Assembly (NCBI GenBank): GCA_020723105.1
Contig: DYJL01000003.1
Coordinates: forward strand, 1 to 64,000
Direction: 5' to 3'
Length of the DNA stretch: 64,000 nt
DNA from: Nitrospira japonica
Lineage (GTDB): Bacteria; Nitrospirota; Thermodesulfovibrionia; UBA6902
Part shown: piece by piece, positions 4,013 through 64,000 of the stretch
How positions within the stretch are numbered: position 1 is the stretch's first letter
Layout: each line of letters opens with the position of its first letter
Made by a program: the position numbers and the translations under genes
The notes under the pieces: model-generated
Told to the model about the DNA's origin: nothing
Database searches by the model: none
Seen by the model: only the letters and a program-made list of their open reading frames with translations

Positions 4013-4618
4013 TTAGTCTACATCCAAAATTCTCCTCTCAGCAAGGAGAGCCGTAATTAACTGCACAGCATTTGCAATATCTGTTCTTTCTGTATCAATA
4101 ACAAGGTCCGGGTTCCGGGGTTCTTCATAAGGTGAAGAAATCCCTGTATAGTTCTTTATAATTCCTGCTCTTGCTTTTTGATATTGGCCTTTTGGATCAC
4201 GCTTTTCACACATTTCAATAGAACACTTTACATATATTTCAAGAAAATTATCACCATCAAAACGTCTTCTTATATATTCCCTGTCTTCATAGTAAGGAAA
4301 AATAAAGGCGCCGAGAACAACTATCCCAGCATCCACAAAAAGCTTTGACACCTCAACAATTCTCCGGAGATTCTCTTTCCTGTCCTCGCGATCAAAACCC
4401 AGATTACTGTTCAATCCATGCCTGATATTATCACCATCAAGAACATATGCATGTACACCCCTGTTGAACAGTTTTCTTTCAACATGATGAGCAATAGTGG
4501 ATTTCCCAGAGGCAGAGAGTCCGGTCAATAAAACAAACCCGCTTTTATGTTTATTAAACTGGTTCCTTTCCTCCCTCTTTACATACCTGTTATCCCATAT
4601 CACATTGTTCAATTCCAT
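4013..4618 (-). CDS. cysC: adenylyl-sulfate kinase (APS kinase)
   Basis: P-loop GLSASGKSTIAHHVE; LDGDNIRHGLNSNLGF; KARAGIIKNYTGISSPYEEP. Confidence 0.95.
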   Translation of the reverse strand: MELNNVIWDNRYVKREERNQFNKHKSGFVLLTGLSASGKSTIAHHVERKLFNRGVHAYVLDGDNIRHGLNSNLGFDREDRKENLRRIVEVSKLFVDAGIVVLGAFIFPYYEDREYIRRRFDGDNFLEIYVKCSIEMCEKRDPKGQYQKARAGIIKNYTGISSPYEEPRNPDLVIDTERTDIANAVQLITALLAERRILDVD

Positions 4619-4639: not shown

Positions 4640-5266
4640 TTATTCCGGCAGATAATCCTTTAATAATGGAAGAAAATCCCTTATAGCGCTTTCCACTAAG
4701 TGCTCAGTCTCTTCAACACCTTTACTTACAGGCGTTGAAATCCTTATAAAAGCAGCATCATTTCTCCGATATTTCAAGGAATTTATAATCATGTACAATT
4801 TTAATATATAATCATTCGTGATATATACATCCTTCATTTTATACCAATAAATAAAAAGTTCTTTCTCCGCACCCTTTTGATATACCGCTTCTATGAACTT
4901 TACTTCATCAGCGCCATTCACCTGCAACCTTCTCTCCCGCTCTGACAGCTTAAACCATCCGCTTCCAGGCAGGCAATGTTTCGGTGAATGAATCTGTGCG
5001 CCTTCTCTTTGTGTACCATAATAACCAACATAAAGGTTAATGCTGTCATCTCCTTTTCGGTATGCTCTTGACATATATTCGTTAACCCTTAGTTTCTCAA
5101 GTATCACATCATCAAACTGGTAAATTTTCCCCTCCCACCCTTGCCATGCAAGCGGAAAATCATCTAAGGTCTTCTTAAGCGGCACTCTCTCATGGAATGA
5201 AACACTATTAAGATAAAGCGCAAATAAAAATATAATAACCGACATTATTATTATTCTTTTATTCAT
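4640..5266 (-). CDS. EpsI family / exosortase C-terminal-domain-associated protein
   Basis: PLKKTLDDFPLAWQGWEG...NLYVGYYGTQREGAQIHSPKHCLPGSGW typical of EpsI; adjacent to exosortase. Confidence 0.9.
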   Translation of the reverse strand: MNKRIIIMSVIIFLFALYLNSVSFHERVPLKKTLDDFPLAWQGWEGKIYQFDDVILEKLRVNEYMSRAYRKGDDSINLYVGYYGTQREGAQIHSPKHCLPGSGWFKLSERERRLQVNGADEVKFIEAVYQKGAEKELFIYWYKMKDVYITNDYILKLYMIINSLKYRRNDAAFIRISTPVSKGVEETEHLVESAIRDFLPLLKDYLPE

Positions 5267-5269
5267 AGA

Positions 5270-6109
5270 TTATTTATTTCCTATTCGCACTAAAATAACT
5301 GACAGAATAATCAGCAAAGAGATTGCAATACCAAACATCAAGAGACCGGCAAACTCATGAAAGAACCCTTTAGCCACCTCTGCGCCATACTTCTCAGCAA
5401 GAATACCTGTACCCACAACTCTTACGGCATTCACAAACACAGCAATTGGAACTGCCATGCCTATAAGCACCAACTTTTTTATCCATCCTTTTTGGGTCAA
5501 ATAGGCAATCGCTGTTGATAAAGCAAGCAAAGAAATTATGGACCTTATTCCACTGCAAGCATCCGCAACCTCAAGCGTTGTATCGGCAAGGTATATGATG
5601 TTCCCCTCCCTTATAACAAGAACGCCAATCCATGATAAAAAATCTACTGAAACTTTTGATACCAGAAGTTTTAACGGAAAAGCAACAGAATCATAAAGAA
5701 TATACGGCAGAGGGATCATAAACAAGAGATAGCAAAACGGAAAAGCAACAGCTTTAAAAAATTCTATCCCGCAAGTAAAAACAATAGCGCCTGCAAGCAC
5801 AAGCAGCATTGAGGCTCTCATTGTAAATTGTTCACCTGAAAGATAGCCAATAAAATAAATAACCATTCCCGAGATCAATATAAAAAGGCCGGAAGTTGAC
5901 GGAGAGAGCAGTACAGATTTTACTAACTCCTTCCTTTGCCAGAAAAAATAGCCGGATATAAACGGTATTAAAAAACCATGTGAATAATTCTCATCGTTAT
6001 ACCAGTCACTAATCATTTCAAAGATGGTACTCCAGTATAAAAAACCAAAGGCAAGGAGAAAAAATACGATAGACAGTATGTTAATTTTATTGTCTTTATT
6101 AATATTCAT
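5270..6109 (-). CDS. exosortase (exosortase/archaeosortase family, polytopic)
   Basis: EVADACSGIRSIISLLAL (Cys), VNAVRVVGTGILA (Arg), GFFHEFAGLLMF (His); multiple TM helices. Confidence 0.93.
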   Translation of the reverse strand: MNINKDNKINILSIVFFLLAFGFLYWSTIFEMISDWYNDENYSHGFLIPFISGYFFWQRKELVKSVLLSPSTSGLFILISGMVIYFIGYLSGEQFTMRASMLLVLAGAIVFTCGIEFFKAVAFPFCYLLFMIPLPYILYDSVAFPLKLLVSKVSVDFLSWIGVLVIREGNIIYLADTTLEVADACSGIRSIISLLALSTAIAYLTQKGWIKKLVLIGMAVPIAVFVNAVRVVGTGILAEKYGAEVAKGFFHEFAGLLMFGIAISLLIILSVILVRIGNK

Positions 6110-16593: not shown

Positions 16594-18255
16594 TCAAAAA
16601 TACCCCAATCCTTTTAATCTCTCCCTTACTTTTTCTTCATCATCATCAGAGAACTCTTTCTGGTCCACATGTTTTGTCATATCGTTTTTATCGGAAACTA
16701 TCACATTGCTGCCTGTAAATTCCCGGGTAAACACTTCTGTTAATACTTTACCGTCTATATATTGCGGAACCGGTATTCCAAAAGTATATAAAACAGTAGG
16801 CACTATGTCTTTTACTGAAATATGGTCCAGCGAACAATGCTGAACATTTTTACCTGCAATCATAAACATTCCAAACAATGAATGATCTCCTGTTTTCCAT
16901 CCCATCGGGCTGAATTCATCCTTTGTTGAAGTGTCGGATGTCATCTCATATCCCGGAGAATCCTCAGTAATTAAAAGGATATCAGGCGCACTTTCAAAGC
17001 CATCACCTGAATATACATCTTCTCTCTTAAGAGCCTTTTTGACAATCCGGTTGTTGTTTTCCGGATCTCTGAATTTCATTATCGAATGGATTATGTCATC
17101 CCGCACCCTATCGTATTCATCTTTTTCAACAATACCTTGAGGCTCCCGGCCTTTCAGATTTATCCTTATACCCCACTCTTGCAGGTAGTACGCCTCTGTT
17201 TTGGACCAATCGGTTCGCGACATGGAATCCAGCAGGTTAACAAAAACGGACAATCCCTTCTTCTGCCTGAGCAGTGACAATATCTTTCCCTGAAGCCGGA
17301 CTCTTTTTCTGTCATCTGTAATGAGCGCTCTCAAAGCATTATTTGCATATTTCTTAAGCAAACTTTTTGAGCCACCAGTATCATCACTCCTTATGGACAT
17401 TAAATTCTGTTTTATAAGCCAGTTGTTCAGGTGGAGCCTTTTGTAAGCAGGTGAAAAACCATGATCCGACAAAAGGATTACGCTGCCATCCCCTGTATAT
17501 GTTTTCACTATTTTCCCGATTGAATCATCTATTATCCTAAAGATTTCTATTATATTGCTTCTATTTCTTTCTGATGCCTTCTTATCAAAATGAGGGTGGG
17601 TTACATCAAGCAGATTAAGGGCTGAATGAAAAAGACGATCGGTTTCGGTAAATACAACCATACCAAAATCAACAGGATATTTTTCCAATAAATAAAATAT
17701 TAAATCTCTTCTCTTTCTAACGGACCTAAGCAATGCCTCAATTAATGCGTCAATCCCGATATTTTCATAATCTTTCCAGTTTGTATCAAATGAGTAATCA
17801 GGGAATTTTTGCCGGATTTCATCAGCCAGAGAAAAAGGATAGGCGAAATTGCTGTTTATATTGGGAGTCAGCATGCATGTAACCATATAACCATTTATTT
17901 CCTGCGGAGGATATGTGCCAGGCACATTAACAACTAAAGTTTTTCTGCCGCTATGTCCTACAAAATCCCAGATTCTGTTAACCTTGACATGAGTCGAATT
18001 TGGAAACTGATACTCATATGCATTTGGCTTTGGAAAAAAGAAGCTGTAGAATCCATGTTTCCCGGGATTCACCCCTGTGGTCAAGGACGTCCAGTTGGGC
18101 GCTGACGAGTATGGCAATACCGATTCTAAAGGACCTGAGGCCCCTTTATTAAAAATATCATTTATATTTTTAAGGTCATATTCCTCTCTGATCTGATTAA
18201 GCATCTTGAAGGACAACCCATCCAGTCCAATCACGAAAACCTTATCAACCGGCAT
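16594..18255 (-). CDS. alkaline phosphatase family protein (type I phosphodiesterase/nucleotide pyrophosphatase-like)
   Basis: VFVIGLDGLSFKML; APNWTSLTTGVNPGKHGFYSFF; LLSDHGF; C-terminal DDDEEKVRERLKGLGYF. Confidence 0.9.
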   Translation of the reverse strand: MPVDKVFVIGLDGLSFKMLNQIREEYDLKNINDIFNKGASGPLESVLPYSSAPNWTSLTTGVNPGKHGFYSFFFPKPNAYEYQFPNSTHVKVNRIWDFVGHSGRKTLVVNVPGTYPPQEINGYMVTCMLTPNINSNFAYPFSLADEIRQKFPDYSFDTNWKDYENIGIDALIEALLRSVRKRRDLIFYLLEKYPVDFGMVVFTETDRLFHSALNLLDVTHPHFDKKASERNRSNIIEIFRIIDDSIGKIVKTYTGDGSVILLSDHGFSPAYKRLHLNNWLIKQNLMSIRSDDTGGSKSLLKKYANNALRALITDDRKRVRLQGKILSLLRQKKGLSVFVNLLDSMSRTDWSKTEAYYLQEWGIRINLKGREPQGIVEKDEYDRVRDDIIHSIMKFRDPENNNRIVKKALKREDVYSGDGFESAPDILLITEDSPGYEMTSDTSTKDEFSPMGWKTGDHSLFGMFMIAGKNVQHCSLDHISVKDIVPTVLYTFGIPVPQYIDGKVLTEVFTREFTGSNVIVSDKNDMTKHVDQKEFSDDDEEKVRERLKGLGYF

Positions 18256-40941: not shown

Positions 40942-41766
40942 TTACAGTTCTATCTTAAAGACACCTTTAAAGGCAAAGCTGAAAATAACTGAGAAGATGA
41001 AAAACCATACTATCCAGTGAAACTCAAAGCCCATGATGTTCAACACCCTGTCAGGATATGAAACATGTAAAGAAACAAAAGGAGAGTCCTCCGGCAATCT
41101 TGACTCGGAATGGTTTAACAGCAATGAGGAAAAAGAGGACCCGGCCCTCTCTGCACTGAGAACAGATAATCCTGTTCCGGCATGTAGACTCTTCCTGTAT
41201 TCTTTCCAGTTTATATAAAAAACAAGTTCGTAATTTCCGTTTGTCTGAGGACTTATTCTCCAGTCTATTTCATTTAATGCTGTAATCCTCAGGGCCTCAG
41301 TCTCTACGACAATCCCTTTTGGGGCCTGCAATATAACAGGTGTATCAATAACTGGAAAATCCTGCTTCAATACAGCCTTGACTATAGCCCCTTCCCCGGG
41401 CTGCAAAGGACGGTCTTCATACCGGTAACCCGTCTGGATTAAAACTATCAACACAGGAATAATAATGAAGATGAGAGGAACAAGCATGAAACGAAGATAC
41501 AGTACGTTTGAAGCCAGTGTCTTTCCAAGTGCTGCGAGCATCTTTCCAAGATCATGATTAAACAACCGCATCTCAAGTATATAGGCGCTTACTTTTGCCT
41601 TTGACTTTTTGATCCCCTCCTGATTTGATACAAAACGGAAAATTATCAGCATCAGGATACCGGACACTAAAGATATCCATATCATTCCCCACGCAGGATC
41701 CAGATTCTCAAAGGGATAGAACAATATCCTGAAGATACCGTTAATAATGTTAAAAATAATTGCCAT
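40942..41766 (-). CDS. membrane protein resembling YidC/EMC3/DUF106 superfamily with extracytoplasmic beta-rich insert
   Basis: TM1 DPAWGMIWISLVSGILMLIIFRFVS, then basic helical hairpin NQEGIKKSKAKVSAYILEMRLFNHDLGKMLAALGK, TM2, periplasmic domain, C-terminal TM. Confidence 0.55.
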   Translation of the reverse strand: MAIIFNIINGIFRILFYPFENLDPAWGMIWISLVSGILMLIIFRFVSNQEGIKKSKAKVSAYILEMRLFNHDLGKMLAALGKTLASNVLYLRFMLVPLIFIIIPVLIVLIQTGYRYEDRPLQPGEGAIVKAVLKQDFPVIDTPVILQAPKGIVVETEALRITALNEIDWRISPQTNGNYELVFYINWKEYRKSLHAGTGLSVLSAERAGSSFSSLLLNHSESRLPEDSPFVSLHVSYPDRVLNIMGFEFHWIVWFFIFSVIFSFAFKGVFKIEL

Positions 41767-41768
41767 GC

Positions 41769-41960
41769 TTATGAAATATATCCCAAACCCTTTAAACGTT
41801 CTTTGACTTTTTCTTCATCGTCATCCTGATGGACCTTTGTTATTTCTTTCTCCAGGACATGTATAACAAATTCATCAACAGATGAATAACCGGAGAGTTC
41901 AGCAAGCTGTTTCACCTTTTCATATAATTCATTTGAAAGTTTAATTTTTGGACCAAACAC
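41769..41960 (-). CDS. 63-aa ribbon-helix-helix-like protein with C-terminal LGY tail
   Basis: IKLSNELYEKVKQLAELSGYSSVDEFVIHVLEKEI (CopG/RHH pattern) plus DDDEEKVKERLKGLGYIS; ggaggtcctgtgATG start. Confidence 0.8.
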   Translation of the reverse strand: MFGPKIKLSNELYEKVKQLAELSGYSSVDEFVIHVLEKEITKVHQDDDEEKVKERLKGLGYIS

Positions 41961-42011: not shown

Positions 42012-43958
42012 CTAATAGATAGATTTCCCTACCATTTCAGGTAAAGGATCAATACCGAATTCTTTAAGAATTGTAGGCGCTATATCATAAAGCGCCGGTT
42101 CTCCCAGCTTTATCTTTTTATTCACAAGAACGATCCCGGGGACCTCGCGGTAATCCATGCAGTGGTCACTGCCCCATTTTCTTGTGTTTTCGATTATAAT
42201 TTCCCTGGAAAACTGTCCCAGCGCACTTTCATCGGAAGAGCGATATTCACTATAAAAGCCAACGACTATATCCGGCGCATCACTCGTGGATGAACCATGG
42301 TATGTTTCGTCCTTTTTAAATGCCTTTCTTACGACCCGCTTGCCGGTTTTTGGATCCACCATCGCCTCTAATTTAGACGCTATTTCATTGACGAGATTAT
42401 CATATTCACTGCCGGGGGCGACTATACCGTTTTGCTCCCGGCCACTGAGATTGATATATAATCCATTAATGCCGAGCGCATACGCCTTTGTAGCAGACCA
42501 TTTAACCGACTCAAAGTATTCCTTCTCAGGCGTCCAGTCAGGAAGCAATTCAATATACCCCTCTTTTGCCAACCATGTATTAATGTTCACCTGCCAGCGA
42601 AAATTTGCAAACCCATGATCCGACATGATCATGACAACGGTATTATCATCAACACGCTTAAGGACCTCAGCCAGGATAACATCCATTCTCTTATATAGGT
42701 CTGTCATGACATTTCGATATTTCCTGAACTCCTCCGTATTATAGTCGGGATGATCTTTTGCCATGAACCGCCAGAACATATGACTGCTCGTATCTATCGT
42801 AGAAATATAAAAAAAGAGCAGCCCCTTTTTAAACCTATCCAATTCATAATCAAGAATCTCCAGCCGGTCTCTCAGAACGACCTGAGCCTGCTGCATAAAT
42901 TCATCCTCTGACAGGATACCGTTATCAAGCGCCTTTGTATCTTCTGCTATTCCCTGAGTGTAAAAAAAGCCGGTGTTTTTATACAATTCTTTTGCATAGT
43001 CTTCGGGATTTGAAATTGGCATAGCCGGATCAGAGGGATCAATATTAACCGGAGATACATAAAGTTTAAAATAAGGATGGATTTCCTTCAGATAGAACCG
43101 GACAATCCCTGGAACATTGACGAGATGGGGTATCATTTCAAATTCAATCTGGACAAACTCGCTCCATTCCCCTTTAGCTAACAGAATCTCTTTGCCATCA
43201 ATCATAACCTTTGCAACATTATGCTCAGGGTCCATGTATGTTTTAAAATTCACTCTTGCTGAGGGCGCACCGTCAATAAGGGTATTCGGCGGTCCGGGGA
43301 TAAAACTTTCAATCTGGCCGGCTCTGACTTCAACAGGATGTATTACGCCGCCCGTAACCTTTTTGTCTTTATCGCCTGGGTCCGATGTCAGATAGGTGAA
43401 GGAGCCGTAAGACCCCAGGATATCCGGGGTCCCCATGCCAGACAGAGAACGTCCGTCACCTTCAGCCGGTGGAAAATTAGCGGGAATTGCAACGATCGTC
43501 GTAGGAATTCCATGTTCTTCAAGGATATCCCAGAAAGGTTTTCCTTTTCTCAGCAACTTTATCTCTTCGCTCTTCAGAGGTATCCGGTATTTCCCGAGAG
43601 AAAGAACTTTAGAAGGCGCTTCGGTTTTTGAAGTAGAAAGATAAGGCAGAAGATCCCTGGGCGTTCTGTGAATGAAATCAAAAATACCATGTCCCCCGGG
43701 GTCCATGCCTGTAATAAAATTCGACCAGGCCACAGGGCTTTGCGGAGGAATGCTGCTTAGAAGCGGCTTGAAATCTCCGTTCTTCCTGAACTTCTCAAAA
43801 TTGGGCATTTCGCCCCTTTCAATCATCTCTTTCAGTAGGGTGTAATCCATCCCGTCAATCCCGAGTATGATGAATTTCTTGTCCGCTGCAACAGCGCCAG
43901 TGAAAGAAATTGTTATTAAAATAAATATCAGGCATGAAGTAAATAATCTATTTCCCAT
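42012..43958 (-). CDS. alkaline phosphatase family protein (phosphodiesterase/nucleotide pyrophosphatase-like), secreted
   Basis: signal peptide; FIILGIDGMDYTLL; QSPVAWSNFITGMDPGGHGIFDF; IMSDHGFANF. Confidence 0.92.
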   Translation of the reverse strand: MGNRLFTSCLIFILITISFTGAVAADKKFIILGIDGMDYTLLKEMIERGEMPNFEKFRKNGDFKPLLSSIPPQSPVAWSNFITGMDPGGHGIFDFIHRTPRDLLPYLSTSKTEAPSKVLSLGKYRIPLKSEEIKLLRKGKPFWDILEEHGIPTTIVAIPANFPPAEGDGRSLSGMGTPDILGSYGSFTYLTSDPGDKDKKVTGGVIHPVEVRAGQIESFIPGPPNTLIDGAPSARVNFKTYMDPEHNVAKVMIDGKEILLAKGEWSEFVQIEFEMIPHLVNVPGIVRFYLKEIHPYFKLYVSPVNIDPSDPAMPISNPEDYAKELYKNTGFFYTQGIAEDTKALDNGILSEDEFMQQAQVVLRDRLEILDYELDRFKKGLLFFYISTIDTSSHMFWRFMAKDHPDYNTEEFRKYRNVMTDLYKRMDVILAEVLKRVDDNTVVMIMSDHGFANFRWQVNINTWLAKEGYIELLPDWTPEKEYFESVKWSATKAYALGINGLYINLSGREQNGIVAPGSEYDNLVNEIASKLEAMVDPKTGKRVVRKAFKKDETYHGSSTSDAPDIVVGFYSEYRSSDESALGQFSREIIIENTRKWGSDHCMDYREVPGIVLVNKKIKLGEPALYDIAPTILKEFGIDPLPEMVGKSIY

Positions 43959-46074
43959 TTTCCCCTAAGATATCCTTTCCATCCATATAAGCCGGTGGTT
44001 TAATACCGAAAAGATTCAAAATAGTTGCGCCCATATCAACGATTGACGGGCTGTTAGAATTGATTTTTTTATTTGAAAAAAGCACTCCCGGCACCAGGCG
44101 CGGATCAATGCAGTGGTCGGCGCTCCAGCTTTTTGTATTATCTTCAATAATATCTTTTGTGATCTTTCCGATTGCAGCATCCCAGGAAACCCTGTACCCT
44201 TCGTTATACCCCAGGATCAGATCAGGGGCGTTTTCTCTATATGGACCATTAAAAATTTCTTTCGAATCGAAAACATCCCGGAGTACAGGCTGCTGCGTTG
44301 CCGGATTTATGACCTTGACAAGTTTTTCTTTAATCTCTCTTCTTAATTCAGAGGCCTCACTATCCGGGGCTACGATCCCCCTGGCCTCACGGCCCTTGAT
44401 ATTTAAATATATACCCGCCATTCCAAGACAATAAGCCCGGCTCCTGCTCCAGTCTACATTTTCAAACCAGGCCTTGCTCTCATCTCCCGACTTCAGGACA
44501 ATATAACCCTCTTTGTGCAGCCAGGAATTAACATGAAATCCCCACATAAAAGGTTTAAAGCCATGATCTGAGATAACGAACAAGACCGTATCATCCTTCA
44601 GAGAATTCACTGTTTTCTCTAAAAGTTTATCCATATTAATATAGAGCTCTTCAACTACATTCCTGTACTTTTTGATATCCGCATCATTGACAGCAGGATG
44701 ATCATCAAACAGAAACCGTATAAACATATGCTGAATCCGGTCCGTTATATCGAAAACAGAGACTACAAGTCCCTGACTGGTGCTCTTTAACGCATGCATA
44801 AACATCTTTTCCCGCTCTTCATGAATATCATAAGCCTGTTTAATAAAGTCATCTTCGTCAATAATCCGCTCGTTAAGCGCCCAGGTATCTTCGGAAAGTC
44901 CGAGTGTAGAAAAACTCCCGTGCAGCTTGGCATGGTACACAGAAAATATGCCGGGGTGTGAAATCGGAAGCACAGGCTTTTCCGGATCAATATTAATCGG
45001 AGTTACATACATTGAAAAGTGCGGCTGAAAAGATTTAATTAACACCCTTGCAATGCCTGATATTTTCATCCCGAGGCCCAGGTTGTAACGCAGCTTGATC
45101 CATTCGGAATACTGCCCGCGCCTGACTTTTATTATTTGATCGGGAAGATGCAGAATTGCATTGTCGGAATCTTTCACTTCCACTTTAAAGGGGATTCTCA
45201 ATTGTGCTTCCTCTATCAATATAGGATTGGCCGGGCCCGGGAAATGACTTGTAATTGTTCCGTTATTATTCTCCACAAAAATTCTTTCACCCTCGTACAT
45301 CTCTCCTGTCTGTTTTGAATCAGACGTATAGTAAGTAAAAGAACCCTGCGTGCCTTTCAGGTCGGGAATGCACATTGCAGCCAGACAATTACCATAAAAT
45401 TTTTCCGGCGGGAACGTTATCGGCACTCTCAGGATCGTGCTGAAAACCCCGTATTCCCCCAGCACTTTCCAGAAAGTCTGACTCTTCCGGTGCAGTTTGA
45501 TCTCCGGCTTTCCCAAGGGTATCTTGTATTTTCCTATCTTCAGATTGCGCTTGGCCGTACCTATATGAACTGAAGATAAATCGGCTATATAATAATTTCT
45601 GTTTGGAGTAAGGAAGTCAAAGATATTATGCTTTCCAGGATAAACAGACGTTGCAAAGGAAGACCATGCAACAGGCGAAACCGCCGGGAATGTTGTGCCC
45701 AGCCTTGAAAAGCAACCTGTGTCCTTCAGCTTCCGAAAATTCGGCAGCTTTCCCTCTGCCATAAATTTTTCGGCAATATCCGGGTCCATACCATCGAGCC
45801 CCAATACAACCACTTTCCTGACATCCGTTTTCCGGTCCCGCTTTTTCCTTGAAAGCATCCACCTGATATGCCGGAACGGCCATATGAGGAATGAAATGAG
45901 GGCGATAACGAGAGAAACAAATATTACAAAAAATGATGTTACCAGTGCAAAGCCCGCACCAGGGCCGATATATGCATGGGCATAATCTGCGCAGCATATC
46001 ATAAATAGAGCCATGATACCTGCAGGCAGGGAATGTCTTTTTATATTAAAAAAACAATTAAATCTTAAATTCAC
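43948..46074 (-). CDS. alkaline phosphatase family protein, membrane-anchored
   Basis: AYIGPGAGFALVTSFFVIFVSL TM region; VVVLGLDGMDPDIAEKFM; SPVAWSSFATSVYPGKHNIFDF; VISDHGFKPF. Confidence 0.92.
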   Translation of the reverse strand: MNLRFNCFFNIKRHSLPAGIMALFMICCADYAHAYIGPGAGFALVTSFFVIFVSLVIALISFLIWPFRHIRWMLSRKKRDRKTDVRKVVVLGLDGMDPDIAEKFMAEGKLPNFRKLKDTGCFSRLGTTFPAVSPVAWSSFATSVYPGKHNIFDFLTPNRNYYIADLSSVHIGTAKRNLKIGKYKIPLGKPEIKLHRKSQTFWKVLGEYGVFSTILRVPITFPPEKFYGNCLAAMCIPDLKGTQGSFTYYTSDSKQTGEMYEGERIFVENNNGTITSHFPGPANPILIEEAQLRIPFKVEVKDSDNAILHLPDQIIKVRRGQYSEWIKLRYNLGLGMKISGIARVLIKSFQPHFSMYVTPINIDPEKPVLPISHPGIFSVYHAKLHGSFSTLGLSEDTWALNERIIDEDDFIKQAYDIHEEREKMFMHALKSTSQGLVVSVFDITDRIQHMFIRFLFDDHPAVNDADIKKYRNVVEELYINMDKLLEKTVNSLKDDTVLFVISDHGFKPFMWGFHVNSWLHKEGYIVLKSGDESKAWFENVDWSRSRAYCLGMAGIYLNIKGREARGIVAPDSEASELRREIKEKLVKVINPATQQPVLRDVFDSKEIFNGPYRENAPDLILGYNEGYRVSWDAAIGKITKDIIEDNTKSWSADHCIDPRLVPGVLFSNKKINSNSPSIVDMGATILNLFGIKPPAYMDGKDILGENGK

Positions 46075-52647: not shown

Positions 52648-54711
52648 CTAATTACTATACTCAGTAAGCCGGGTTATCTTATTGTTCGCACCCGAAAGAT
52701 TGACTTCTATCAATTTTAAAAGCCGGTCCGCTATCTCAGGTTCATCATTCAATATATTTTGCATCTCTTCAGGATCTGTTCCAAGGTTAAAAAGCAGTGA
52801 TTTCTTATCTTTCAAGTAATAAATGAGCTTATAGTTTCCATCCCATATTGCTATAGTGCCAGTAGAAACAGGGGTACCAAAAGAACGGTTTCTGATAAGC
52901 TGCATCGAAAACAGGGTCTGTGCCTCCAGCGATTTGCCTTCAATCAGGGGATACAGAGATCTCCCTTCCATCCATGTGGGAACCGCTATCCCCGCCAGAT
53001 CCAGGATAGTCGGAGCAATGTCTATTTGCTCAACAGGCATATCTATCACTTTACTGGCAAGCCGGCCTGGCATCTTGATGACTAATGGCACATGAACGAA
53101 TTGTTCAAAGAGATGATCACCGACATGCCCTTTATATCCATGAGAAAAACTTTCTCCATGATCTGCTGAAAAAACAATTATTGTGTTGGATAAATCCATT
53201 TTTTCTGAAAGCTTCTTCATAAAAACCCTGAATTGTTCGTCAGAATATAATATAAATTCATCATAACGTTTTCTCAACTCGTCCACTTTTGGTTGATCTT
53301 CAGGTTTATATTCAAAATCTTCAGGTGCATCAGTATATTTCATCTCATCCGGTTTATCGTTATCTCCACCAAACATGCCCCTGTAAGATTTTGGAGGAAG
53401 ATATGGCGAATGGGGAGGATAAAGATGAAGCCATGCAAAGAAAGGCTCGTGCAACTGCTTTGCTTCCGTCTCCTGAATTGAGGATGACATATAGTCCAGG
53501 AACCGGTTATATACTAATTTCGGAGGATATGGATTTTGAGGATGATCGCCAGTATCCTGAATTGACTGCTGATTCTGCGTCCCGTTTTCTTTTTTAACCG
53601 GATTACTTTCAGACCGTTTCATATTAGCGCTTGCAGCCAGTTTTTCAACAGACTTCAGAACAAATATATAAGGGTATTTCTTCATGAACTTGATAATGAC
53701 AGGCCTTTTTTTAAAAAAAACCTTAACGCCGCGAAATTTGCCATTGCTCAGGAATTTGTTAAAGGTCGTTGCGTTATCTTTTGTCAAGAAACTTCGTCCT
53801 ATTCCCAAAGTATCAGGGTGAGCATGAGGGTTCTGCACCCAACCATAAATATTGTATCCGTTCTCCTTCAGAATATGAGGCAGACTGTCTGTATAATTTT
53901 TGACGGGGGAATTCAGGGCATCATACCACACCTTATGGGTCCAGACTCTTTGTCCGGTCATTAAACTCATAGAAGTTGGCACAGTCCAGTTGGAAGCAGC
54001 ATAGAGCCGCTTGAATACAACCGCATCTTTAGCCCATTCAGACAGATAAGGAGTAGTGGGCCGGTTATATCCATACAAACCCATATCGCGTGCAGCTAAC
54101 GTGTCCCATGTTATTAATATGATATTGGGATTTGTATTATTGATTCCAGAAACATGAGCGCTATTTTTATTAACGTACTTAAATGCCGGAGGTTCCTTCC
54201 TGAATACACTGAATCCGGAACAGGGCAAAGCAATCAACAGCCCTGCAACAAAAAGCCAGACCAGAGGAGTTATACGGGTATTTATCCCTGAGAGAAATGC
54301 TTCAGTATGTTTATTGATTAAGAAAATAACAGCTCCAGACAGAATGCTGCTTATCAGTAAAATTGTGAGATCATTCAGATTCGTCAGGCTGTTGTTGAAT
54401 CTGTCAACAAAGAAGATATGCCTGATTGCATGTATGATAACAATTATTATTATCCATGCAATTATGTATTCAAGCCGGATTTTTTTAAATGTTTTATTTA
54501 TTCCATATGCGAGGATCCATAAGAAAAAGGCAATAAAAATTCCCGGGATGGTCCACAATATGTACGATAATGACAGGTCCGGCAGAAAATCTGTAAACCG
54601 CATATAAAAGGAGTAGCCGTCCCATTTATAAAAGGTGACTTTCAGGAACAATAATGTAAATAAAACAAAAATTATCCGCTGAAGCAAGATGAAATATTTT
54701 TTAGCTGACAT
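52648..54711 (-). CDS. membrane-bound sulfatase-like (alkaline phosphatase superfamily) protein
   Basis: N-terminal TM helices; NIILITWDTLAARDMGLYGYNRPTTPYL; WTVPTSMSLMTGQ; FSADHGESFSHG. Confidence 0.92.
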   Translation of the reverse strand: MSAKKYFILLQRIIFVLFTLLFLKVTFYKWDGYSFYMRFTDFLPDLSLSYILWTIPGIFIAFFLWILAYGINKTFKKIRLEYIIAWIIIIVIIHAIRHIFFVDRFNNSLTNLNDLTILLISSILSGAVIFLINKHTEAFLSGINTRITPLVWLFVAGLLIALPCSGFSVFRKEPPAFKYVNKNSAHVSGINNTNPNIILITWDTLAARDMGLYGYNRPTTPYLSEWAKDAVVFKRLYAASNWTVPTSMSLMTGQRVWTHKVWYDALNSPVKNYTDSLPHILKENGYNIYGWVQNPHAHPDTLGIGRSFLTKDNATTFNKFLSNGKFRGVKVFFKKRPVIIKFMKKYPYIFVLKSVEKLAASANMKRSESNPVKKENGTQNQQSIQDTGDHPQNPYPPKLVYNRFLDYMSSSIQETEAKQLHEPFFAWLHLYPPHSPYLPPKSYRGMFGGDNDKPDEMKYTDAPEDFEYKPEDQPKVDELRKRYDEFILYSDEQFRVFMKKLSEKMDLSNTIIVFSADHGESFSHGYKGHVGDHLFEQFVHVPLVIKMPGRLASKVIDMPVEQIDIAPTILDLAGIAVPTWMEGRSLYPLIEGKSLEAQTLFSMQLIRNRSFGTPVSTGTIAIWDGNYKLIYYLKDKKSLLFNLGTDPEEMQNILNDEPEIADRLLKLIEVNLSGANNKITRLTEYSN

Positions 54712-54756: not shown

Positions 54757-56922
54757 TTACTGGATATAACCCAATGTCTTAAGGCGATCAACAACTTCTT
54801 CTTTCAATTTTGTGGTTGATCCGGCTTTATAAGTATTCATATTAAGCCATTGGCTAAGTCTGTTCTCAAGGTCCTCAGAGATGCTACTGTCAGAATTATA
54901 TATGTTCTTTTTCTCTTCAGGGTCCTTAAGGATATTGTAAAGCTCCCTTTTTCCTGTTGTGGAATTGATATATTTAAAAGAGCCGGAATATATTGCACGT
55001 TCAATACGGTCAAATCTCGAATTATACCGGCCTCCTTTTTCTTTGAAAAATGATTCACTTATAACATTTATGGGCCTTTCGCGTGAATTACCCGATAAGC
55101 TCTTTCCCTCGATGTCTTCAGATATCTTATATCCAAGGACTTCCAGAACCGTCGGCATAATATCGGTAACGCTGACCACCTCACTCACTACATGACTTTT
55201 GTTATCATCAGGAAACTTTATAATTAACGGAACGTAGACATGGTCTTGATATACCGAAAGACCGTCGTGTTCCATCATAGCCCTGTCCCCAAAAGCCTCA
55301 CCATGGTCTGACGTAATAATTATGATAGAGTTCTGATATAAACCTGCGTCTTTCAGTCGCTGGACCAATTCTCCGATTTTAAAATCGACATAAGCAATAC
55401 CACCGTCATATTGAGATATCAGATGGCTCTGTTCTTCCCCTGTTATATTGCGTTCAAAATTCATGACCTGATCTTTAAGTTTCATATAACGGGAATAAGT
55501 AACCCCCCCCCTCTTCCCGGGAAATAATGAATCAAACGGAAGAGGTGGAATATAGGGCCAGTGTGCATCCATGTAATTGATAAAGAGGAAAAACGGGTCC
55601 TGCCCTTTTTTTACTTTATCAATAAGCTTGAACACCTCATTATTTATATCTTCAGCAGGACGCAAGTCTTCGTATATGGAAGGCGAGATAAAATTTACGA
55701 CAAAACGGCGAAAATTCTGCCTGAGATAGTATTGCTTAGTTCTTCCGACTATTGGAATACGCGACCGGTAGTCGTAATAATTGAATCCCTGATCAATCTC
55801 GAAACCATTTCCCAGGAAGGAAAAATTTGATACAACCCCGATTGTGAGATAACCGTTTTCAGACAGCATTTCCGCCAATGTATGAAACTTCTTGTCCAGC
55901 GGCCTGCATACCGGGTAGTCAGGGATCACACGATGCGCTCCGTGTTTGCTCGAATACATGCCTGTGAAAATAGATGCATGAGATGTCAGGGTCATGTCTC
56001 CAGAAGCAATGGCCCGGGTATATAAGGTCGCCTGTTCCGCAAGTTTTCTGAGATTTGGTGTTGTGTCCCTTTTGTATCCGTAAAGAGAGAGATGATCCGC
56101 ACGTACTGTATCCATAGAGATCAATATGACGTTATGACGGCCTCTATCCTTATGTAACGATTTGACACTCAATTTTTCTCTGATAGGGCTTTGAACCATA
56201 AACGAACTTGTACAAATAATTATTAATGAAACAGCAATGAGTGAAGCGAAATAGCTGACAGATATTGCAGTTTTTTTCTCTGAAGACATTTTGAATTCTC
56301 TCTCATTGATTTTCTTATGGATTAAAAATGAAATGAAAAAACAGATGAACAGATAAATCGGGACTATAACAGCTTTGAAGGTAACAGAATGGCCTCCCAA
56401 TAAGTCCTTGCTTATCCAGAGCAATCCAGGCAGCGATAAACTTGTAACCCATGGATTCGTGAGAAAACGTAACTGCTGAAACTTACTGTCAGAGATAAAA
56501 CTCATAATAATAGCGACTGTCAATATAACAGCCACAAACAAAGAAAGCAGCACAGAAAGGTCCTGTAAGGGTAACTGAATAAAAAGGTTGATTGAAAATA
56601 CCCAAATGACTGTTAATACTGCTGCCAGTGGATACAGATCAGAACTGTGATTCTCACGAAGAAGACTGGCTCTCTCCCGTACTTCAGATAAAGCCAATGC
56701 TGACAATCCTCCAAGGACTGAACCAATAAAGGGATAGATCACGAATAACAATAAAGACGCAAATCCCCAATGCATTGGTATGTAGTCATGATGAGGCTTG
56801 ACCAGCCATGGCAGAACAGTTGAAAACAAACATTCCACTATTCCATAAATTATCCAGGCGACTGCACCATGTACTGCGCCGGAATGCAAATTTTTCCCGA
56901 AGCTTTGTTTTTCTGATTCCAT
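54757..56922 (-). CDS. membrane-bound sulfatase-like protein with C-terminal LGY tail
   Basis: N-terminal TM helices; NVILISMDTVRADHLSLYGYKRDTTPNL; MTLTSHASIFTG; ITSDHGEAFGD; ...VDRLKTLGYIQ. Confidence 0.93.
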   Translation of the reverse strand: MESEKQSFGKNLHSGAVHGAVAWIIYGIVECLFSTVLPWLVKPHHDYIPMHWGFASLLLFVIYPFIGSVLGGLSALALSEVRERASLLRENHSSDLYPLAAVLTVIWVFSINLFIQLPLQDLSVLLSLFVAVILTVAIIMSFISDSKFQQLRFLTNPWVTSLSLPGLLWISKDLLGGHSVTFKAVIVPIYLFICFFISFLIHKKINEREFKMSSEKKTAISVSYFASLIAVSLIIICTSSFMVQSPIREKLSVKSLHKDRGRHNVILISMDTVRADHLSLYGYKRDTTPNLRKLAEQATLYTRAIASGDMTLTSHASIFTGMYSSKHGAHRVIPDYPVCRPLDKKFHTLAEMLSENGYLTIGVVSNFSFLGNGFEIDQGFNYYDYRSRIPIVGRTKQYYLRQNFRRFVVNFISPSIYEDLRPAEDINNEVFKLIDKVKKGQDPFFLFINYMDAHWPYIPPLPFDSLFPGKRGGVTYSRYMKLKDQVMNFERNITGEEQSHLISQYDGGIAYVDFKIGELVQRLKDAGLYQNSIIIITSDHGEAFGDRAMMEHDGLSVYQDHVYVPLIIKFPDDNKSHVVSEVVSVTDIMPTVLEVLGYKISEDIEGKSLSGNSRERPINVISESFFKEKGGRYNSRFDRIERAIYSGSFKYINSTTGKRELYNILKDPEEKKNIYNSDSSISEDLENRLSQWLNMNTYKAGSTTKLKEEVVDRLKTLGYIQ

Positions 56923-57727: not shown

Positions 57728-59845
57728 TCATTTAATATAACCAAGGCTCTTCAGCTGGTCCTTTGTCGTGCTGTCTATCTCTATAGTCTTCGATCTGCCG
57801 CCACCTTTACTCATGCTGTTAGTCACCTTTGTTAACTCAGAATTGAATTCCTGCAGGATGTCCGGCCGGGAAGATGCAAAATTATTTTGTTCCTCAGGGT
57901 CAGAATCCAAATCGTAAAGTTCCGTTTCCCTCGTCCTGACATCATAGATGTACTTCCACTTGTTGCTCCTGACAGACTGAAGTTCCTTTGCCTTGTAATA
58001 GAAAAATGCCTGGTAGGGGGTCAGAGAGAATGCGTAATTCGTTTCTGCCTGTGAATCAATTTCATTGTTGGAGACCTGAGAGATCATGCTTTTACCATCC
58101 ATTTTTTCTGAGTGGTTTAAAGACAGATATTCTAAAATCGTCGGGGCAATATCAATGGAACTTACCTGTGTCTCTATAGTTTTACCCTGCCACTTTCCGC
58201 CAGGGAATTTTATGATAAGGGGCACCCTGATCAGCCCATCATAGAGACGGTCTCCATGATCGAAATAATAGCCGTGTTCAAAACTCTCTCCATGGTCCGC
58301 GGTCAATATTATCAGACTGTCTTCATACAGCTTCAGCCCCTTCAGTTCACTAAACAGACGGCCCAGTTCTTCATCCAGGGTCCTGATTTCAGCGTCATAC
58401 AGGGCGACAGCATAGTCAGCAATCTTTTTGTCAATATGTACTTTTTTCTGCACACTATCGTAATTTTCCTTTTCCCACTCATAACTATAGTACTTCTCTA
58501 TGTCATAATCACTGTCAGTAAACATCTTTCGAAAGGCGGGAGCAGGATTATAGGGAGTGTGAGGATCAAAGTAATGCACCCACATGAAAAAATGATTCTC
58601 CTTGTTTTCTTTTAACCATGTAAAAACCTTCTCATTAGTTTCTCTGGCGCTGTTTTCCGCCTTTATCCTGCCAAGGGCCTCTATCTTTCTTAAAGCGAAA
58701 ACCAGCAAAAAACTGTTATCAAAAACTACATTTTCAATCCGGTCAGAATACATTTGAAATCCAAGCCTGGTATTGAAGCTCGAGTTTAAAACAGCAGCGC
58801 TGACAAATGCAGCCGTCTTATTTCCTTTTTCTCCGAGCATATCAGATAACAGCGGAATATTTTCAGGTGTCGCGCTGAAGTTATCAAGCAGACCATGAGA
58901 TGAAGGGTATCTTCCTGAGAGTATCGTAAAGTGAGAAGGCCGCGTCAGAGGGACCTGCACAATTGCATTTTCCCAGAGCACACCATCCCTGGCAAACCCA
59001 TCAATATTCGGGCTTGTTTCCTTCTTATATCCATAAACACCGAGATGATCGGCACGTACCGTATCTATAGTTATCAATATAACAGGAGTGGCTGAGCCGT
59101 CATTTTTTGACAGGATTTTATCAGATTGTCTGCCCGGAGATTCATTTGTAACGTCATCATGAAGAGAGTATATAATTATCCCTGATAGCACTACTGCTAT
59201 CATCAGGGCAAGCCGCAGTTTTTGTATTCCCTTTGCACCGCTTCTTAAGAACAGGAAACAAACACCGCCTGCAGCCAAACTCACCAGCAGGATAATAAAA
59301 TCCTTGAACAGATTACCGGAAGACCAGGGTGGAGTCCTTAATTCAAGATTAACCTTAAGGACCATCAGCATAAAAATATTAACCGAAAAAAGAGCGGAAT
59401 AATGAACTGCCTTAAGATAGTCTGTTCTTCTTATAAGAAATTTATTAATCAAATAATAAAGCAGATAAAACAAAACCACCGCAAGACAGCTCAGTGCCAT
59501 AATGATAAAGAGCTTTTTCATGCCAGAGGCAAGAAAGAAGACCTTGAACATCAGGTAACTGCTTGCAAAGAAGGCATTCGCAACAGCAGTAATTATCCAT
59601 GCACCTTGGATGGTTCTAAAATTATCAGACTGTTCTCTTAAACCAGAAAACCATCCAAGACCTGCTGTCCCAATTAAACCCAGAAGTCCAAAGCAGCCAG
59701 AATAAATTAATAAGCCGGTCATCAGCGGGACAACATCAGGATTAAGTCTGTCGAATGAGAGATTCCACAATGCTTCGGCAACATAATATATGACTCCCAG
59801 GAATCCTCCGCAGTAAAATCCACGTATTCCACGCATTATCTTCAT
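57728..59845 (-). CDS. membrane-bound sulfatase-like protein with C-terminal LGY tail
   Basis: N-terminal TM helices; VILITIDTVRADHLGVYGYKKETSPNI; VPLTRPSHFTILSGRYPSSHG; LTADHGESFEHG; ...DQLKSLGYIK. Confidence 0.94.
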   Translation of the reverse strand: MKIMRGIRGFYCGGFLGVIYYVAEALWNLSFDRLNPDVVPLMTGLLIYSGCFGLLGLIGTAGLGWFSGLREQSDNFRTIQGAWIITAVANAFFASSYLMFKVFFLASGMKKLFIIMALSCLAVVLFYLLYYLINKFLIRRTDYLKAVHYSALFSVNIFMLMVLKVNLELRTPPWSSGNLFKDFIILLVSLAAGGVCFLFLRSGAKGIQKLRLALMIAVVLSGIIIYSLHDDVTNESPGRQSDKILSKNDGSATPVILITIDTVRADHLGVYGYKKETSPNIDGFARDGVLWENAIVQVPLTRPSHFTILSGRYPSSHGLLDNFSATPENIPLLSDMLGEKGNKTAAFVSAAVLNSSFNTRLGFQMYSDRIENVVFDNSFLLVFALRKIEALGRIKAENSARETNEKVFTWLKENKENHFFMWVHYFDPHTPYNPAPAFRKMFTDSDYDIEKYYSYEWEKENYDSVQKKVHIDKKIADYAVALYDAEIRTLDEELGRLFSELKGLKLYEDSLIILTADHGESFEHGYYFDHGDRLYDGLIRVPLIIKFPGGKWQGKTIETQVSSIDIAPTILEYLSLNHSEKMDGKSMISQVSNNEIDSQAETNYAFSLTPYQAFFYYKAKELQSVRSNKWKYIYDVRTRETELYDLDSDPEEQNNFASSRPDILQEFNSELTKVTNSMSKGGGRSKTIEIDSTTKDQLKSLGYIK

Positions 59846-63130: not shown

Positions 63131-64000
63131 CTACTTCAGATACCCGAGCGAGCGTAATTGTTGCAGCCTGCCGCTGTCTATTTTCTCCTGCTTTTCACCA
63201 CTATTAAAAGCGACAGCGCTGGACCAAGAGTTTAATATTTTATGAAGCTCATCCGCTTTTTCTCTTTCCTTGTGAATCAGATTAATATCTTCCTTATAAT
63301 CATTACTCAAATTATAGAGTTCTTTTTCTCCATCATCAGATTGAATATATTTCCACTCTTTATATATCACGGCCCTCATGCCAATTCCGTATTTTGGGTT
63401 TTGAACCTTCCAGTTAATGTCAGGACGAATTTCAGCAAAGGCAAGATCAAAATTGTGTTCTGTCTCTCCCTTTAAAATGGGTACCAGGCTTCTTCCCTGA
63501 ATGTTCTCCGGGGCCGGGATATTGAGGAGATCCAGAACAGTTGGCATCAAGTCAACAGTTTGCACAATATCTTTATTAACAACACGAACGTCAGATTTTA
63601 ATTCTGGATATCGGATGATAAAGGGTACTCGAATCTGCTCTTCATATAAACTGTTTCCGTGCTGCCAAACTTCATGCTCATTAAAACTTTCTCCATGATC
63701 CGATGTTATTATCAAAATCGTATTATCCAGAAGATGCCAGTCTTCAAGCTTGTCAAAAAGCAGTCCCAGGTAATGGTCCAGATAGCTTATCTCTCCATCG
63801 TAAAGATCCAGCAGGTCCTTCAGACTTGAAGAAGTGAGAGTAAATTCTCCTTTATTCAATCTTACTATGTCATCAAAATAAGGCAGCTCCCGTCCGCTGC
63901 TGTTTTTGTTATATGGAGACGGCGGCTCATATTTATAATGAGGCTCATTGTAGTGCAAAAACAGAAAAAACGGTTCTTTCCTGTCCTTGTTATCTTTAAG
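63131..64000 (-). CDS. sulfatase-like protein (partial, N-terminus beyond the window edge) with C-terminal LGY tail
   Basis: ITSDHGESFNEHEVWQHGNSLYEEQIRVPFIIRYPE; ...QQLRSLGYLK; frame stays open to base 64000 (LKDNKDRKEPFFLFLHYNEPHYK). Confidence 0.92.
   Translation of the reverse strand, partial: LKDNKDRKEPFFLFLHYNEPHYKYEPPSPYNKNSSGRELPYFDDIVRLNKGEFTLTSSSLKDLLDLYDGEISYLDHYLGLLFDKLEDWHLLDNTILIITSDHGESFNEHEVWQHGNSLYEEQIRVPFIIRYPELKSDVRVVNKDIVQTVDLMPTVLDLLNIPAPENIQGRSLVPILKGETEHNFDLAFAEIRPDINWKVQNPKYGIGMRAVIYKEWKYIQSDDGEKELYNLSNDYKEDINLIHKEREKADELHKILNSWSSAVAFNSGEKQEKIDSGRLQQLRSLGYLK

Follow-up and report, generated by a model that had tools for sequence, protein, structure and literature searches.

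The closest described systems share single features with the arrangement considered here. As is generally known, the cargo peptides of microcompartments and encapsulins are short C-terminal helical tags, joined by a variable linker to unrelated enzymes of one pathway. Antitoxins and repressors of the ribbon-helix-helix (RHH) type, such as CopG, ParD and NikR, have a small RHH-like N-terminal domain followed by a C-terminal tail of the partner-binding kind, and it is through this tail that RHH antitoxins bind their partner. In the CysDN sulfate adenylyltransferase (PDB 1ZUN), CysD ends in a ..GY[F/M] element related to the tail described below. Finally, the NPPs of the alkaline phosphatase (AlkP) superfamily (PF01663; ENPP, Xac NPP) share their fold with one phosphodiesterase (PDE) of the present locus, PDE16, and their metal ligands are conserved in two further enzymes, AlkA and AlkB.

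Here we analyzed a stretch of 64,000 nucleotides from Nitrospira japonica, referred to as the window, which encodes a 63-aa microprotein, RHH-LGY (Table 1). The original prediction held that the C-terminal end of this microprotein, the LGY tail, recurs at the end of the otherwise unrelated PDE16, and the two are indeed identical at 15 of 16 residues over the aligned tail. Beyond that prediction, we found looser tails on three sulfatase-fold proteins of the window (..DRLKTLGYIQ, ..DQLKSLGYIK and ..QLRSLGYLK), conservation of the tail within the PDE family, the membrane protein MEM beside the microprotein, and a connection with sulfate.

Table 1. Features of the window discussed in the text
Feature	Position	Strand	Remarks
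APS kinase (PF01583), no tail	4013..4618	-	in the window's gene cluster
PDE16, AlkP-superfamily (NPP-fold), 553 aa	16594..18255	-	LGY tail after a variable linker; no export signal
LGY tail of PDE16, DDDEEKVRERLKGLGYF	16597..16647	-	C-terminal end of PDE16
MEM, 274 aa, membrane protein with three TM segments	40942..41766	-	starts 2 nt past the RHH-LGY stop codon
RHH-LGY microprotein, 63 aa	41769..41960	-	GTG start; RHH-like residues 1-45, tail 46-63
LGY tail of RHH-LGY, DDDEEKVKERLKGLGYIS	41772..41825	-	C-terminal end of the 63-aa ORF
AlkB, tailless AlkP-superfamily (PF01663) enzyme	42012..43958	-	export signal, here Sec
AlkA, tailless AlkP-superfamily (PF01663) enzyme	43948..46074	-	with AlkB, directly upstream of RHH-LGY
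Sulfatase-fold membrane protein	54757..56922	-	ends KEEVVDRLKTLGYIQ
Sulfatase-fold membrane protein	57728..59845	-	ends STTKDQLKSLGYIK
719-aa sulfatase-fold protein, 3' part	63131..64000	-	ends RLQQLRSLGYLK; 5' part outside the window

The match goes beyond chance, because two counts single out the tail. When the 3.13-Mb genome was searched with a tail profile, A3, whose training included several of the families it retrieves, eight proteins in all reached E<=5e-6 and the next match lay at E=0.11; the eight are PDE16, a second PDE (545 aa), the three sulfatase-fold proteins, RHH-LGY, a CysD-like protein (PF01507) and a sulfotransferase (PF00685). Among 7,724 ORFs of related loci, the pattern L..LGY.{0,3}-stop occurs 121 times, most of these cases being the RHH family itself, against a combined 2 for the five alternative permutations of L, G and Y. 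No solved structure carrying the tail was found. The window proteins starting at 52648, 54757 and 57728 match PF00884 but lack the C/S-x-P-x-R maturation motif, so that they are probably not classical formylglycine sulfatases.

Across 46 genomes (the window's own, five that carry the gene cassette described below and 40 drawn evenly from the phylum), 30 significant hits were obtained for a tail of the form ..RLKxLGY[I/L], and all 30 fall into a few functionally related families, namely the AlkP superfamily (15), two related RHH-like microproteins (7), APS kinase (3), CysD (3) and one sulfotransferase family (2). The tail is thus not scattered at random over unrelated proteins, the outcome that had been set beforehand as refuting the prediction, and it is absent from 35 of the 41 genomes of the phylum sample. 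A second profile, A8, was trained on AlkP-superfamily tails only, none of them from the window's genome, and it retrieves APS kinase (1.5e-9, 3e-7), the sulfotransferase (5e-7) and the two microprotein families RHH2 (3e-7) and RHH1 (2.5e-6), where in genome G411, the source of two training sequences, only the non-AlkP hits are independent.

RHH-LGY is a widespread, unannotated family. By profile and pattern searches, in which neighbouring genes played no part in the selection, we collected 80 loci with full-length relatives at 50-90% identity, the record titles of which name Nitrospirae, Acidobacteria, Planctomycetes, Gemmatimonadetes, Verrucomicrobia, Omnitrophota, Latescibacterota, KSB1, Eisenbacteria, Deltaproteobacteria, Armatimonadetes, Sumerlaeota and others. 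When 33 members drawn from many phyla are aligned, M1, G24, Y25, E30, F31, E37, L56, G58, L59, G60 and Y61 are invariant. The microprotein has no export signal. Its earlier description as RHH-like is moderately supported by its sequence: PDB profile matches to NikR are weak (E 0.0044 for RHH2, E 0.66 for RHH1), and every match to the RHH-type models of Pfam stays under the gathering score. Members of the second family, RHH2, are 72-97 aa long, are homologous to RHH1 (hhalign probability 98.5%) and lie near an ATP sulfurylase and a PDE; they were seen in loci L033, L037, L038, L041, L048, L049, L052 and L057.

The microprotein belongs to a cassette with the fixed gene order AlkA-AlkB-RHH-MEM, since, in the loci with enough flank, AlkB lies within 500 nt upstream of RHH-LGY in 75 of 76, AlkA further upstream in 60 of 61, and a MEM homologue downstream in 74 of 76; in one of the two loci without a close MEM (L028) it stands about 2 kb further on. 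The association with AlkP-superfamily genes, on which the original prediction had staked itself, is therefore near-total, and the two enzymes directly upstream lack the tail just as had been noticed. No toxin gene was found beside RHH-LGY, whose neighbours in nearly all loci are the AlkP enzymes and MEM. Six long upstream frames considered as candidate fusions of AlkB to RHH-LGY all proved out of frame with AlkB.

AlkA, AlkB and PDE16 are members of the AlkP superfamily by their PF01663 match and conserved metal ligands; the ligands and a Ser at the nucleophile position are at least 95% conserved in AlkB and are also kept in AlkA. AlkB is exported, as it carries a Sec signal here and its homologues have Tat or lipoprotein signals. 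AlkA consists, from N to C terminus, of a signal-like segment, the motif Y-[IV]-G-P-G-A-G, one TM segment, a basic stretch and the catalytic domain, for which the positive-inside rule makes a cytosolic location probable. The motif between the signal-like and TM segments is nearly invariant in AlkA and its homologues. MEM is predicted (AF2, mean pLDDT 93.9) to run through an amphipathic helix, TM1, a cytosolic helical hairpin, TM2, an Ig-like domain and TM3. It has zero matches in Pfam and NCBIfam, and against these curated collections the microprotein families have no match at cut-off either (RHH2, of which one member was scanned, with Pfam only). The order TM1-cytosolic hairpin-TM2-TM3 resembles that of Oxa1, YidC and EMC3, a topology suggestive of an Oxa1-type insertase; a PDB fold search gave mainly matches to the Ig-like domain and did not confirm this assignment. 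Near the cassette in two further loci (L029, 11070-11366; L037, 11269-11565) there are 98-aa membrane proteins of DUF2061 type that end in ..LEELGYL, that of L037 matching PF09834.

Regarding the pathway in which these genes may act, at least one gene for APS kinase, ATP sulfurylase, CysD or sulfotransferase lies near the cassette in 43 of the 80 loci, within the stretch covered, and none in the covered stretch of the other 37, many of which are cut by contig ends. One operon (L052) reads RHH2-LGY, Sat (ATP sulfurylase), PDE, APS kinase-LGY, PDE, AlkA, AlkB, RHH1-LGY, MEM; in another locus (L026) the cassette is followed, after MEM, by CysD-LGY, a CysN-like GTPase and a PDE. A cassette sulfotransferase is present in 30 loci, mostly right after MEM, ahead of AlkA or in divergent orientation to it, and in these loci the sulfotransferase has no tail. 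Eight genomes of 3.4-7.7 Mb, chosen for having this sulfotransferase, contain one homologue each at E<=1e-15, which is the cassette copy. In the window's genome, the neighbour of a tailed sulfotransferase is an APS kinase without the tail, and a PDE that also lacks it comes after CysD-LGY. Each such sulfation group thus combines tailless members with one or more tail bearers, a pattern of these examples and not a statistic. The window also encodes two sulfotransferase-family proteins (PF13469; 9602-10516 and 21893-22654), which were considered as the cassette sulfotransferase and rejected, having no close relation to it. Adjoining the APS kinase of the window are an exosortase (PF09721) and an EpsI-like DUF3485 protein (4640-6109). 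The window is an exosortase/EpsI polysaccharide cluster, which suits a cell-envelope product and does not itself give the identity of that product.

How the tail behaves on a large enzyme can be seen in PDE16, the model of which is NPP-like, with pLDDT above 90 in most of the core, about 80 in the tail helix, 71 in the linker and 59 at the end. In an alignment of 28 sequences, most of which share about 30% identity with PDE16, the PDE16 residues L547, G551 and Y552 vary as little as the metal ligands do; the mean fraction of the modal residue in the family is 0.48 in the core, 0.30 in the linker and 0.61 in the tail. This profile, together with the model, suggests an appended docking helix rather than a piece of the core structure. 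Tandem LGY-tailed relatives of PDE16, at least two in a row, were observed in several genomes that belong to one class (L159, L160, L162, L179, L180 and L186).

The best explanation, which we adopt tentatively as one that may well hold, is that the LGY tail is the docking module of a sulfation system and that RHH-LGY is an adaptor for its tailless enzymes. The tail would be a short, charged, amphipathic C-terminal helix ending in L..LGY and attached to its carrier by a variable linker, and it would gather members of sulfate activation and sulfation with their AlkP-superfamily enzymes. RHH-LGY, a small and presumably cytosolic protein that by analogy with RHH proteins may form a dimer, would present two tails at once and thereby adapt the AlkA-AlkB-MEM cassette, the enzymes of which, like the associated sulfotransferase, have no tail of their own. 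The likeliest candidate receptor would be the cytosolic helical hairpin of MEM or the cytosolic domain of AlkA, and the product of the pathway might be a sulfated envelope molecule. We favour docking because it explains why the bearers have unrelated folds, why the linker varies and LGY does not, and why the neighbours are fixed. The earlier proposal of a portable tag for docking or assembly, which one locus has as a fusion and the other as a separate protein, agrees well with these results and can be extended to APS kinase, CysD and a sulfotransferase, the docking itself being what we infer. A turnover tag, also proposed, is disfavoured, since many bearers of the sulfatase-fold kind have N-terminal TM regions that probably place the tail in the periplasm.

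Several observations count against docking. The sulfatase-fold bearers are probably periplasmic, to judge from their N-terminal TM regions, and RHH-LGY, APS kinase, CysD and PDE16 are cytosolic, so that one receptor cannot serve all bearers; separate assemblies on each side of the membrane, or self-association of the tail, could be envisaged. The many LGY-tailed PDEs in genomes without the RHH cassette, as well as the 37 loci without a sulfation gene, speak against it too. A more far-reaching version, in which LGY recruits APS kinase, CysD, sulfotransferase and AlkP enzymes to a membrane hub and RHH-LGY serves as the dimeric adaptor, and which would amount to an undescribed envelope sulfation machine of many phyla, is conceivable, and we regard it as somewhat unlikely.

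Alternatively, RHH-LGY might be a transcriptional autoregulator, a dimer that binds an operator and whose tail senses, or competes for, the partner of the enzyme tails. This we think improbable, even though the RHH-like sequence, which weakly matches profiles of NikR and further RHH proteins, agrees with it, the RHH2 homologue is the first gene of several operons, and K5 and K7 of the presumed beta strand, conserved at more than 90% in the family alignment, would suit DNA binding too, a point that weakens the docking view as well. However, the RHH-LGY gene is the third of its cassette and only 2 nt from MEM, a crude test revealed no shared palindrome upstream of AlkA (55 loci) or AlkB (66 loci), and the mean column identity of the 63-mer in the family alignment is 66%, a strong conservation across phyla that is unusual for an operator-specific repressor.

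With half of the tail bearers (15 of 30) in the AlkP superfamily, it might also be supposed that the tail belongs structurally to the C-terminal end of the AlkP fold, an element that PDE16 and the sulfatase-fold proteins contain in cis and that AlkA or AlkB receives in trans from RHH-LGY, acting as its missing subunit. The terminal LGY is kept by 33 of 35 members of the PDE16 family, and the tailless AlkA and AlkB always neighbour RHH-LGY. We nevertheless hold this for a doubtful explanation: a role inside one fold cannot explain a tail that the unrelated folds of APS kinase, CysD and sulfotransferase also bear, AlkB is exported and RHH-LGY has no signal, and the confidence of the PDE16 model is lower in the tail than in the core.

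It is quite unlikely that the tail is derived from the C-terminal end of CysD, or imitates it, and so still binds where that end does on a complex of CysDN type or another one that activates sulfate. The canonical CysD (PDB 1ZUN) does end in ..GSMEEKKRQGY., which can be aligned to the end of CysD-LGY, ..YTMQKLRALGYM, and A8, the profile of AlkP tails, reaches CysD, but weakly (E 0.02); the similarity covers few residues, and no other hit is as weak as CysD. A functionless 3' end that arose by recent transposition or recombination would agree with near-identical tails inside one gene cluster, and the original prediction also allowed for a transposed or recombined end. This reading is largely refuted and highly implausible, for of the 15 identical residues 8 use the same codon, where codon usage predicts 6.4, and the tail is kept across phyla.

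Whichever role the tail plays, unannotated genes conserved in many uncultured phyla are now linked to sulfate activation and sulfation, and a short peptide signature flags further members. Should the tail prove to be a docking code, it would provide a bacterial route to assemble the enzymes that make PAPS with those that use it, and the function of a large uncharacterised group of the AlkP superfamily would become testable; if the reading as envelope sulfation is true, a metabolic complex would here be specified by a short-peptide code of a new kind.

The individual components come from known superfamilies. Among open-licence papers we found no published description of the cassette or of the tail, and the locus differs from each of the systems named at the outset. 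In contrast to cargo peptides, the LGY tag ends in LGY, occurs also on probably periplasmic proteins and stands alone on small RHH proteins, and no shell or encapsulin gene was found among the Pfam-annotated genes of the cassette and operons. Unlike RHH antitoxins and repressors, RHH-LGY is without a toxin, stays below the Pfam cut-offs and is flanked by AlkP enzymes and a membrane protein in a cassette fixed across phyla. The related element of CysDN is found on CysD, whereas the LGY tail is mostly borne by AlkP enzymes, APS kinase, sulfotransferase and RHH microproteins. Compared with the AlkP-superfamily NPPs, the enzymes described here have in addition either the LGY tail or an RHH-LGY partner, and AlkA adds the N-terminal Y-[IV]-G-P-G-A-G motif and a TM segment.
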